NCBI RefSeq assembly: GCF_001010945.1 | Contig: NZ_LBHB01000001.1 | Coordinates: 434,001 to 498,000 of the forward strand | Length of the DNA: 64,000 nucleotides | Direction: 5' to 3' | Origin: Aurantiacibacter luteus | GTDB taxonomy: Bacteria > Pseudomonadota > Alphaproteobacteria > Sphingomonadales > Sphingomonadaceae | Shown: piece by piece, positions 60,859 through 64,000 of the stretch | Layout of the letters: every line of letters begins with the position of its first letter | How positions within the stretch are numbered: the stretch's first letter is position 1 | Notes under the pieces: generated by a model | What the model saw: the letters and a program-made list of their open reading frames with translations, nothing else | Databases searched by the model: none | Told to the model about the DNA's origin: nothing | Made by a program: the position numbers and the translations under genes

Positions 60859-62001
60859 CTAGCCGCTGGTCCGCAAGCTTTCATCGGCGCGCAGCAAGGC
60901 ATCGTAGTCCTCCACCGCTCGCGTCACCTTTTGCATCATCGCCGTGCTGCCCGGCACGCCCTGCCGGGTCTCGCCGATCATTACCGCCACGGCATAAGTC
61001 CGCCCGTCGGGCGCGAACAGCAGGGCGACGTCGTTGTAGCCGGACTGGCGGCCGTCGTAATACTGCCCGGTCCCGGTCTTGTGGGCGATGCTCCAACCCT
61101 GTTCCAGGCCGCCCTTCAGCCGGCGCGGGCCGCTGCGGGTTTCGCGCAGAGTATCTAGCATCAGCTTCGTCGTCGGCGGTGCCAGCAGTTCCCCGCGCGC
61201 CAGCCGGGCGAGGGCGGTGGCGATGGCGCGCGGGCTGGCCCCGTCGACCGGATCGGCGAGATAGCTCTCGAACGCGCGCTTGCGGGTGGCATCGGGCAGC
61301 GCATCGCGCGCATCGTAGAAGCCTTGCCGGGTATAGGCCCACTCCTGCCGCCATTCGAGCCCGGCGATGGAGCTTTGCAGCAACCGCTCCCCGGGGCCGA
61401 AACGGACCTTGGCGATGCCCTTGTCGCGCAGCATGGCGCGCACCGCGTCCGGGCCGCCCACGGCCCACAGCAGGGCGTCGTTGGCGGTGTTGTCGCTGCG
61501 GGTGATGGCGCGGGTCATCAGGTCGAGCGGATTGATTTCGAGCGAGCCTGCACGCAGCACTTCCTCGCGGATCGGCTGGTGGAACACGGTCAGGTCCTGC
61601 CGCGCGATGGTGATCCGATCGCCGAGTGTCAGCGTGCCGCGATCCACCCGGTCGAGCGCGGTCAGCGCCACCCACAGCTTGGAAACGCTCTGCTGCGGCA
61701 GCAGGGCATCGGCATTGACGCCCGTGCTCCAGCCGTCCTCCAAGTCGACGACCGCGATGCCCGTCGTGCCGCCGAAATCTGCCGCGATGGTTTCGAGCAG
61801 GCCGGTCAGCTCCTGGCGCGCTTCCTGCACCGCGGGATCGGCAGTCTCGGGCGGCGGAGCGGCGACGGGCGGACTTGCCGCATCGTCGCGCTCGGCAAGG
61901 GCCGCCTCCGCGCGGTCGGTGGGCGGCGCGTCGTCTGACCCGCAGGCGGCCAAAGCGGCCAGCCCCGCGAGCGCGGCAATAGATCGGAAAACCCCTGTCA
62001 C
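60859..62001 (-). CDS. Class A beta-lactamase-like serine hydrolase, predicted lipoprotein
   Basis: 380 aa with GTG start at 62001. A lipobox ends LAALAAC (Cys20), followed by a 45-residue Pro/Ala/Asp linker. The catalytic domain (about 65-370) has SxxK in QQSVSKLWVAL, SDN in ITRSDNTANDALLW and KTG in AHKTGTGQYYDG. A Glu in FESYLADP may be the omega-loop base, but the usual Asn after it is Ala, and the loop is shorter. It could be a narrow beta-lactamase or a penicillin-interacting hydrolase; resistance cannot be predicted from sequence alone. Confidence 0.82.
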   Translation of the reverse strand: MTGVFRSIAALAGLAALAACGSDDAPPTDRAEAALAERDDAASPPVAAPPPETADPAVQEARQELTGLLETIAADFGGTTGIAVVDLEDGWSTGVNADALLPQQSVSKLWVALTALDRVDRGTLTLGDRITIARQDLTVFHQPIREEVLRAGSLEINPLDLMTRAITRSDNTANDALLWAVGGPDAVRAMLRDKGIAKVRFGPGERLLQSSIAGLEWRQEWAYTRQGFYDARDALPDATRKRAFESYLADPVDGASPRAIATALARLARGELLAPPTTKLMLDTLRETRSGPRRLKGGLEQGWSIAHKTGTGQYYDGRQSGYNDVALLFAPDGRTYAVAVMIGETRQGVPGSTAMMQKVTRAVEDYDALLRADESLRTSG

Positions 62002-62040
62002 GATGGGCTCAACGGGCGAAGTCGCTGAAATATCCGAAAA

Positions 62041-62937
62041 TCATCCGGCGCGCAGTTCCTGGGCCAGCAGGCGGAACTCGTCGCCGCGCGGGCTGTTGGG
62101 CCGCCAAACGAGGGCGATCTCGCGGCTGGTCTTGCTGCCCTTGAGGGGCCGGGCGACCACGTCGGTCTCGTGCAGGATGCCGGCATCGATCGCCATCTGC
62201 GGCAGCATGGTGAGGCCGAGGCCGTTGTCGACCATCTGCACCAGCGTGTGCAGGCTCGTACCGATCATGGTGGCAGAGGCGCGCAGTTCGGGCCTGTTGC
62301 AGGCGGCCAGCGCGTGTTCCTTCAGGCAATGGCCGTCCTCCAGCAGCAACAGCCGCGCCTCGTCGATCGAGGCGGGGGCAATTTCCTCGGGCGGATCGCG
62401 CGGGTCGTCCTTGGGGAAGGCCACGAACAGTTCGTCGGTGGCGATATGCGCCTTTTCCACCTCGCCGGTGGCGAAGGGCAGGGCGAGCAGCACGCAGTCG
62501 GCGCGTCCGTGATGCAGCGATTCGATGGCGTGGTCGCTCGTCTCCTCGCGCAGGAACAGCTTCAGCTGCGGGCGCTCGCGCCGCAGGCGCGGCAGGATGC
62601 GCGGCAGCAGGAAGGGCGCGATGGTGGGGATTACGCTCATGCGAAGCTCGCCCGACAGCGGCTTGCCAGCGGCCTGCACCAGCGCGGCCAGTTCCTCCGC
62701 CTCGCGTAAGAGCCGGTGCGCCTTGTCGACCACGCTGTTGCCGAGCGGAGTGAAGCGCACCACCCGCCGGCTGCGCTCCACCAGCGTCACGCCGAGCAGC
62801 GATTCGAGCTCGCGGATGCCGGCGGAAAGGGTGGACTGGGACACGAACGATGCCTCCGCCGCGCGGCCGAAATGGCCATGCTCGTGCAGCGCGACGAGAT
62901 ACTGCAGCTGCTTGATGGTGGGGAGGTAGGTGGACAT
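62041..62937 (-). CDS. oxyR: Hydrogen-peroxide-sensing regulator OxyR
   Basis: 298 aa LysR-type regulator. The helix-turn-helix (FGRAAEASFVSQSTLSAGIR) is followed by the substrate-like domain. The peroxide-sensing cysteines are C204 and C213 in LLEDGHCLKEHALAACNRPE, spaced by nine as C199/C208 in E. coli OxyR, with the HCLxxxA signature. It activates antioxidant genes when the disulfide forms; catalase or peroxiredoxin genes are not in the window. Only 11 bp separate its ATG from the GIY-YIG element. Confidence 0.92.
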   Translation of the reverse strand: MSTYLPTIKQLQYLVALHEHGHFGRAAEASFVSQSTLSAGIRELESLLGVTLVERSRRVVRFTPLGNSVVDKAHRLLREAEELAALVQAAGKPLSGELRMSVIPTIAPFLLPRILPRLRRERPQLKLFLREETSDHAIESLHHGRADCVLLALPFATGEVEKAHIATDELFVAFPKDDPRDPPEEIAPASIDEARLLLLEDGHCLKEHALAACNRPELRASATMIGTSLHTLVQMVDNGLGLTMLPQMAIDAGILHETDVVARPLKGSKTSREIALVWRPNSPRGDEFRLLAQELRAG

Positions 62938-62948
62938 TATCCCAAGCT

Positions 62949-63324
62949 CGTCATTGCGAGGAGCTGAAGGCGACGCGGCAATCCATCACCTAGGCTATCA
63001 CTTCGGCATAGAGGTCGCGCCAGTCGGGGTTACGTTCGACAATCAGCGCGATCTTCTTCTTCCGCGAACCAGCCTTGAGTTGCTTCTCACGCAGGATGGC
63101 GGACTCCATCGTCGGGTGCAACTCGTACCAAACTAGGGTCTTACAGCAGTATTGCCTGGTAAAACCGTCGACGAGTCCTTGCCGATGCTGCCACCCGCGC
63201 TGCGCGATGTCCGAAGTGACGCCGACGTAGATGGTACCATTCTTGCGATTGGCCATGATATAGACGCAGGGCTGAATGTCGCGGGCCATGGGTGATGGAT
63301 TGCTTCGCTACGCTCGCAATGACG
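62949..63324 (-). mobile_element. Inverted-repeat-bounded GIY-YIG cassette (376 bp)
   Basis: The left end (62949-62990) and the right end (63291-63324, inverted) both read CGTCATTGCGAG, a variable core of 18 or 10 nt, then CAATCCATCACC. The coding sequence occupies the interval between them: its stop overlaps the left repeat by 1 nt and its start is 1 nt from the right repeat. The end sequences resemble the widespread CATTGCGAG-GCAATCCA palindromic repeats. No target-site duplication is visible. Mobility is inferred from layout. Confidence 0.7.
62990..63289 (-). CDS. GIY-YIG endonuclease-like protein
   Basis: 99 aa. It has CVYIMANRKNGTIYVGVTSD (the GIY and YIG strands as VYI and YVG), catalytic-type Arg in AQRGWQHRQG and Glu in MESAILREKQLK, so the small single-domain UPF0213/YhbQ-like nuclease is intact. 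Members cleave DNA; cellular roles are not well defined. The gene is bounded by inverted repeats with no room for a promoter outside them, so it is either read from rnd or from within the repeat. The ribosome-binding site is weak. Confidence 0.88.
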   Translation of the reverse strand: MARDIQPCVYIMANRKNGTIYVGVTSDIAQRGWQHRQGLVDGFTRQYCCKTLVWYELHPTMESAILREKQLKAGSRKKKIALIVERNPDWRDLYAEVIA

Positions 63325-63345
63325 GGGGGAAGAGGCCGCGCACCA

Positions 63346-64000
63346 TCACTTCGCCGCCTCGATCATGTCCGCGCGGACCTGGTCGATGTGCGCCATCTTC
63401 AGCCGGCCTTTCTCGACCGCGAAAGCGAGCTTGCCCTCGACCAGTTCGAGCGCGTCCTTGCCGAAGACCTCGTAGCGCCAGCCTTCGAGGATCGGCAGCT
63501 TACGCACGCCGGCGGCGAGCGCCTCCAGTTCGTCGGAGCGGGTGAGCAGCCGGCTGGCGACGTCGATCTCGCGGCTGCGGATCTTTAGCAGCAGTTTCAG
63601 GAGGTCCGCCACCAGCACGCCCTCCTTGCCCAGCGGCGCGCCGCGCTTGGGCTTGTCGGGCATCTCGTCATCGGACAGCGGCTGCGAGTTCTTGAGCGTC
63701 TTCATCAGCCGCTTGCCGATGTCGTTATCCTTCCAAGCCTGCGAAAGCCCGCGCACCTTCGCGAGATCGGCCTGGGACTTGGGCGGATGGCTGGCGATGT
63801 CGGCCAGCGTCTCGTCGCGCACGATGCGGCCGCGCGGGATGTCCTTGTCCTGCGCCTCCTGCTCGCGCCAGGCGGCAAGATCGCGCAGGCGGCCGAGCAC
63901 CGCCGGATTGCGCCCCGGCGCGCGGATGCGCTTCCACGCCTCGCCATGGTCGTTGGCATAGTTGGCGGGGTCCGCCAGCTTCTCCATCTCCGCATCGAGC
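63346..64000 (-). CDS. rnd: Ribonuclease D, C-terminal part (partial)
   Basis: About 218 residues of the C-terminus; the gene continues past the window end. Two HRDC-type helical domains are visible: GRLRDLAAWREQEAQDKDIP with RGRIVRDETLADIA and KSQADLAKVRGLSQA, then a second domain at LLKLLLKIRSREIDVASRLL and LPILEGWRYEVFGKDALELV. RNase D trims the 3' ends of tRNA and other small RNAs; the exonuclease domain lies beyond the edge. The same strand continues to the GIY-YIG gene and oxyR. Confidence 0.88.
   Translation of the reverse strand, partial: LDAEMEKLADPANYANDHGEAWKRIRAPGRNPAVLGRLRDLAAWREQEAQDKDIPRGRIVRDETLADIASHPPKSQADLAKVRGLSQAWKDNDIGKRLMKTLKNSQPLSDDEMPDKPKRGAPLGKEGVLVADLLKLLLKIRSREIDVASRLLTRSDELEALAAGVRKLPILEGWRYEVFGKDALELVEGKLAFAVEKGRLKMAHIDQVRADMIEAAK

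Follow-up and report, generated by a model that had tools for sequence, protein, structure and literature searches.

A short nuclease gene lies between two inverted palindromic repeats near the end of the window (the whole stretch of 64,000 nucleotides that was analysed), and the locus raises the question of whether the nuclease serves the repeats that enclose it. The first-pass annotation had described two inverted repeats with a GIY-YIG gene filling the space between them. Direct reading confirms this arrangement, with the open reading frame at 62990-63289 on the minus strand. The features of the locus are as follows.

62041..62937, minus strand: oxyR-like LysR regulator, the downstream neighbour; context, outside the element
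62949..63324, no strand: whole REP-GIY-YIG-REP unit, 376 bp, inserted between rnd and oxyR
62949..62990, plus strand: left REP, long type, with a CGTC tag, an ATTGC...GCAAT stem and a CCA-type tail (CGTCATTGCGAGGAGCTGAAGGCGACGCGGCAATCCATCACC)
62990..63289, minus strand: GS-type single-domain GIY-YIG nuclease gene, 99 aa, with the motif REKQLKAGSRKKK and a Pfam match
63291..63324, minus strand: right REP, short type, inverted; the minus strand reads CGTCATTGCGAGCGTAGCGAAGCAATCCATCACC
63346..63987, minus strand: C-terminal part of rnd (HRDC domain), the upstream neighbour; context, outside the element

The rnd gene extends beyond the end of the window. Read directly, the left REP consists of CGTCATTGCGAG, 18 nt and CAATCCATCACC; the right REP, on the minus strand, has the same two ends with 10 nt between them. 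Base 62990 is common to the GIY-YIG stop codon and the left REP, and the ATG ends 1 base short of the right REP. Exact CGTCATTGCGAG is present at both ends of the unit and nowhere else in the window, where simple arithmetic gives a chance expectation of ~0.008 exact 12-mers per 64 kb, both strands included. Rfam has no match within window positions 62000-64000. As a whole, the 376 bp make up a CGTC-tagged REP element in its gene-carrying form.

The A. luteus genome (2.89 Mb, 22 contigs) contains five exact copies of CGTCATTGCGAG, namely the pair in the unit, a gene-less inverted pair at C1:294033-294133 and one single copy. The gene-less pair is 101 bp long, is located at the fmt-truA junction and is the sole other CATTG pair in the genome. 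Its left end has an 18-nt interior and its right end a 10-nt interior, as in the gene-carrying unit, and a by-eye comparison of the two finds 73 of 76 positions alike. Because the gene-less REPIN shows the same asymmetry together with matching ends, the 18/10-nt difference is a property of the element; to read it as a sign of separate copies, as the first-pass annotation did, is wrong. The gene-less REPIN folds into one hairpin (-32.2 kcal/mol, z -5.1), and single REPs fold weakly. The genome encodes four single-domain GIY-YIG genes and one long-frame UvrC-like match. All four single-domain genes are flanked by inverted repeats, which belong to four different families.

GIY-YIG gene of the window unit: REP family CATTGCGAG
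GIY-YIG gene L001: REP family CCTGAGCTTGTCGAAGG
GIY-YIG gene L003: REP family CCTGAACTTGTTTCAGG
GIY-YIG gene L004: REP family GCTGGGATCGCT

The product of the gene in the unit matches the Pfam GIY-YIG family (55.6 bits, E=6.7e-15) and keeps residues Y9, Y20-x-G22, R30, H34, E67 and N86, numbered without the initial Met. The features of the superfamily, which are the GIY/YIG tyrosines, the Arg, the Glu, the Asn and the fold, are all present. The structure is predicted with a mean pLDDT of 94. In it a KxGSR stretch forms the loop that joins the helix of the catalytic Glu67 to the next helix, and this loop, to judge from the model, is a plausible place for DNA recognition. The nearest folds are the structure-specific nuclease Slx1, UPF0213 and the N-terminal domain of UvrC. 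No NCBIfam model matches the four of these single-domain proteins that were compared, and PHROGs gives one match, a weak one, with a family of phage homing endonucleases. Values of dN/dS between the GIY-YIG alleles at rnd-oxyR are 0.07-0.16; the protein is therefore maintained under purifying selection. No Y1_Tnp gene is present in the A. luteus genome (Pfam, E<=0.001), which rules out a RAYT as mobiliser there, and a Y1 transposase is absent from 15 of the 21 CATTG genomes checked.

Linkage of GIY-YIG genes of this type to such repeats elsewhere had been set as a test of the proposed mobilising or maintaining role of the nuclease, and it extends to unrelated bacteria far beyond chance. Protein alignment alone, with no use of the flanks, identified 80 CATTG-partner loci in records of Alpha-, Beta- and Gammaproteobacteria, Bdellovibrionales, Kuenenia, Pelodictyon and Amoebophilaceae. 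At 61 of the 80 both flanks carry exact CATTGCGAG within 260 bp of the gene; at 73 at least one flank does. The density of CATTGCGAG is 5.55/kb in the flanks vs 0.18/kb elsewhere in the same 80 loci, a difference of ~30-fold. A further 22 high-scoring loci within the order include 21 with CATTGCGAG on one side or more, 16 of them with it on both. There is next to no probability that common repeats have simply come to lie beside a common gene. CGTC REPs are indeed abundant in alphaproteobacteria, according to a 2013 survey (Di Nocera et al., PMC3733652), but this explanation is already refuted by the local enrichment and by the within-genome permutations given below. The flanks of locus L175, in a record titled Frankia sp. 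RB7, match Bradyrhizobium at 87-92%, and this record is probably contaminated or misnamed.

The repeats differ from gene to gene, and their types follow the proteins. The comparison set comprised 70 single-domain GIY-YIG loci from 41 genomes, 67 of them with usable proteins. Over these 67, protein identity and flank similarity are correlated (Spearman rho 0.43); shuffling flanks between the genes of each genome gave a maximum rho of 0.30, and 0 of 2000 permutations reached 0.43. Outer flanks were compared to remove shared ancestry of position. For proteins at least 60% identical in non-orthologous contexts, 78% of 85 pairs have the same flanking REP, as against 2.4% of 1356 pairs below 45% identity. 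A tree of 178 proteins requires 39 changes among the eleven REP labels, which were assigned by hand-made patterns, vs 95 for shuffled labels (0/200); the protein is short, and many forks of the tree are unresolved.

The CATTG partners (K-x-G-S-R, with G-P in one member) differ from the rest (K-x-W-x-R-x-W-K) in a motif of the loop that follows the catalytic Glu. None of the 28 genes with the W motif in CATTG-rich genomes adjoins CATTG, and most of them sit in an inverted pair of another REP. Together, the permutations, the pair counts, the tree and the W-motif genes support the cognate pairing that had been proposed by likeness to RAYTs. A second clade, the partners of CGTCATTCCCGCG...CGCGGGAATCC, was drawn phylum-wide; 25 of its 30 loci have an inverted repeat with a score of at least 15, and these repeats mostly carry a CGTC or GTC tag.

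Such type-specific pairing inside one genome weighs against passive linkage, in which a mobile or useful gene is moved by homologous recombination between abundant REPs and has no functional tie to them. Only two CATTG REP pairs exist in the 2.9 Mb of A. luteus, and one is at the cognate gene. The contrast set, consisting of L047/L048 and four UvrC genes, points the same way: L047/L048, the most distinct of the GIY-YIG proteins, have no flanking repeat. Passive linkage would fit the elements found in either orientation at one locus (below), as recombination between inverted REPs would give, but we consider it very improbable.

Two observations concern related genes. The clade partnered with CCTGAACTTGTTTCAGG (L003, L056, L058, L059, L082, L089 and L096) occupies one genomic locus common to most congeners carrying it, which from our own reading of the flanking sequence we take to be ruvB-ruvA; this shared locus is a case of long-term vertical retention. 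Phylum-wide, many GIY-YIG copies of this class, e.g. those of G461, G506 and G472, have in-frame stop codons, as decaying elements would show.

The first-pass annotation had also asked for an empty allele between rnd and oxyR, and this was found in 26 of the 30 congeners with both genes side by side, where the genes overlap or leave an empty gap of no more than 28 nt. The CATTG unit is present at this site in A. luteus (G000), G021 and G048, so that the whole unit is polymorphic for insertion. These three carriers are not one group on the oxyR tree, and its starred branches force at least two changes, which implies repeated gains or losses of the unit. The junction is a shared insertion spot, occupied by the CATTG unit in some congeners and in G046 (L124) by a REP pair that has no gene and belongs to the CCTGAGC...TGTC family. 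The fmt-truA junction is likewise empty, with the genes overlapping, in nearly all other genomes where it can be read; at this junction G010 carries a REPIN of independent origin, oppositely oriented.

A related unit of 420 bp is present in two copies in G026. The copies are ~90% identical over a stretch that includes both REPs and reaches ~12 nt past each CGTC, and their outer contexts have no further similarity. A duplicate in unrelated contexts indicates that the unit moves or is copied whole. Opposite orientations between the same neighbours occur in different species (L060 vs L038, L049, L052, L053 and L070; L136 vs L140 and L142), which suggests inversion between the REPs of an element or independent insertion. 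Several elements occupy the same locus across species, so either the elements seldom transpose or the gene has become partly domesticated. In a test for target-site duplication the mean longest direct repeat was 4.95 vs 4.44 (p=0.03), a weak excess at varying offsets; the candidate repeats at fmt-truA, AATGACC in G010 and GTGA in G000, could both be explained by retained start or stop codons. Of the features of classical insertion sequences, the elements have inverted ends and one duplicated unit, and there is mostly one copy per type per genome.

These alleles also bear on a homing origin, in which the gene would cut a recipient REP pair and be copied in by repair, the REPs being target and homology arms that spread by other means. 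GIY-YIG is a classic homing nuclease fold, and the weak PHROGs match is to a phage homing family. The gene fills the interval between paired REPs, such pairs also occur without it, and homing would account for REP-rich genomes without the gene. However, the other rnd-oxyR alleles have no CATTG REP pair, the sole REP-bearing one (that of G046) being of another family, so the empty allele there is not an uninterrupted recognition site. The duplicated 420-bp unit of G026, moreover, includes both REPs. We regard homing as improbable.

A role of the nuclease in mobilising or maintaining the repeats is the leading explanation. It seems reasonably probable, on present sequence evidence, that the nuclease is a dedicated, repeat-type-specific partner with a mobilising role; cutting, and the spread that cutting would cause, are the steps that we infer. 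The nuclease would recognise its own REP, perhaps as a hairpin, a cruciform or paired REPs, and would bind and cut it. Repair or replication would then copy the REP-gene-REP unit, as well as gene-less pairs (REPINs), to new sites.

The same cutting could instead protect the host. The nuclease would then cut or resolve the hairpins or cruciforms that REPs of its own type form, and so keep rearrangement or stalled replication in check without any spread, and its position inside a REP pair could serve autoregulation. Slx1 among the nearest folds, the strong hairpin of the REPIN, and purifying selection and loci common to several species, which fit a host-useful gene, are all consistent with such a role. 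It gives no account of gene and repeats arriving together at empty sites, nor of a unit duplicated in new contexts, and REP-rich genomes without the gene are common. A purely protective function is accordingly unlikely, and a mobilising partner remains the preferred reading.

Presence of the GS-type gene predicts CATTG REP abundance across the order. Among 298 genomes, four or more CATTG REPs occur in 28 of the 30 that have an A1-clade match of at least 141 bits (median 26), vs 61 of the 268 without such a match (median 0; Fisher p=1.7e-14, phylogeny ignored). The two exceptions among the 30 have no GS motif and have other repeats or none. About 35 of the 298 genomes have at least 10 CATTG REPs without a detectable GS-type gene, and in eight of these no gene of this class passes the threshold. 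They include G288, G110, G181, G188, G065 and G193 along with ~29 more, with 10 to 113 REPs counted. A broader search for a divergent GS-type gene, from which L258 and L261 were left out as lying at contig ends, found none in these genomes. CATTG REPs can therefore persist, and perhaps spread, without the nuclease in cis. Possible causes are that the gene was lost, that an overlooked enzyme mobilises the repeats in trans, or that they spread independently.

CGTC-tagged REPs are stated by the survey to "apparently lack a dedicated transposase", having no association with transposase genes, and its discussion considers that the enzyme was lost or that general transposases serve instead (PMC3733652). 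GIY-YIG goes unmentioned in the survey, which places neisserial dRS3 and rickettsial RPE-4 and RPE-6 in the CGTC superfamily. The CATTG REPs resemble this superfamily in the CGTC tag (a few copies read TGTC or AGTC), the AT at the start of the stem, the CCA-type tail, the inverted (HH) dimers of unequal partners, and a distribution that is mainly alphaproteobacterial and scattered in other phyla. They differ in their stem: the survey describes 8-9 bp with a loop of 4-5 nt (PMC3733652), whereas the ATTGC/GCAAT stem has 5 bp and encloses a mismatched interior of 10-18 nt. CATTG REPs may be an irregular family of the superfamily. The pairing of clade and repeat makes the single-domain GIY-YIG nuclease the strongest candidate so far for the partner enzyme that had been missing for CGTC REPs. 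A full-text search, with preprints and most subscription papers outside its reach, found no literature linking GIY-YIG or DUF559 to REPs.

The closest analogy is with REP-RAYT systems (REPtrons) and their REPINs. Both have short palindromes with a tagged tetranucleotide at one end and inverted pairs that form one hairpin; both have a low-copy gene enclosed by an inverted pair of the repeat type that belongs to it, several such types per genome with an enzyme to match each, and gene-less copies as well as orphan repeats. A RAYT is an HUH/Y1 transposase (TnpA-REP) accompanied by GTAG REPs, whereas the enzyme here is a GIY-YIG protein of ~100 aa with CGTC repeats, known from sequence. Pfam matches of the 99-aa protein are to GIY-YIG only, and neither an HUH motif nor the catalytic Tyr of such a transposase was found. 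The system thus appears to work like REP-RAYT, by analogy, and is not a member of the RAYTs because the HUH/Tyr features are absent.

Likenesses to other systems are partial. Homing endonucleases of the I-TevI type and free-standing seg genes share the catalytic fold and are nuclease genes that possibly promote their own spread, but the nuclease of the unit is a single domain without a separate DNA-binding domain, and the unit is bounded by clade-matched palindromes and lies in neither an intron nor a phage. Proteins of the UPF0213/YhbQ type (PDB 1zg2 and 1ywl) are the closest solved structures by sequence and fold. We know of no reported link of these two entries to repeats, and the L047/L048 clade of the order likewise has none. 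As in a MITE with its autonomous partner, gene-less copies have the ends of the gene-carrying copy; unlike those of a MITE, the ends of the unit are palindromes themselves, and a consistent target-site duplication was not found.

Few short repeats are as common in alphaproteobacteria as CGTC REPs, for which the survey concluded that no dedicated enzyme exists (PMC3733652). Clade-by-clade pairing makes the enzyme question directly testable. If the mobilising reading is true, REP spread evolved on two or more occasions by unrelated chemistries, and many proteins that now bear only the name 'GIY-YIG nuclease' would gain a function. We give about even weight to a broader proposal, that these units form a minimal class of mobile element in which a lone GIY-YIG nuclease of ~100 aa, with its specificity in a short loop next to the active site, recognises and spreads one CGTC palindrome. 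Under this proposal several clades within one genome would each drive a REP family of their own, and DUF559 nucleases with another palindrome class would form a parallel system.

Nuclease genes of the DUF559 family (PF04480) are accompanied by inverted palindromes of another class (like CCCCTCCCGCTTGCGGGAGGGGTTGGGG), with scores of at least 15 at 23 of 30 loci, and so show a parallel pairing of nuclease and palindrome. None of the 30 is near CATTG, which rules out DUF559 nucleases as substitutes for the GS-type gene in those CATTG-rich genomes where it is lacking. The set comprises L384-L413, and two of its members, L398 and L413, are in A. luteus, at G000:C11:242964-243275 and 692554-692862.
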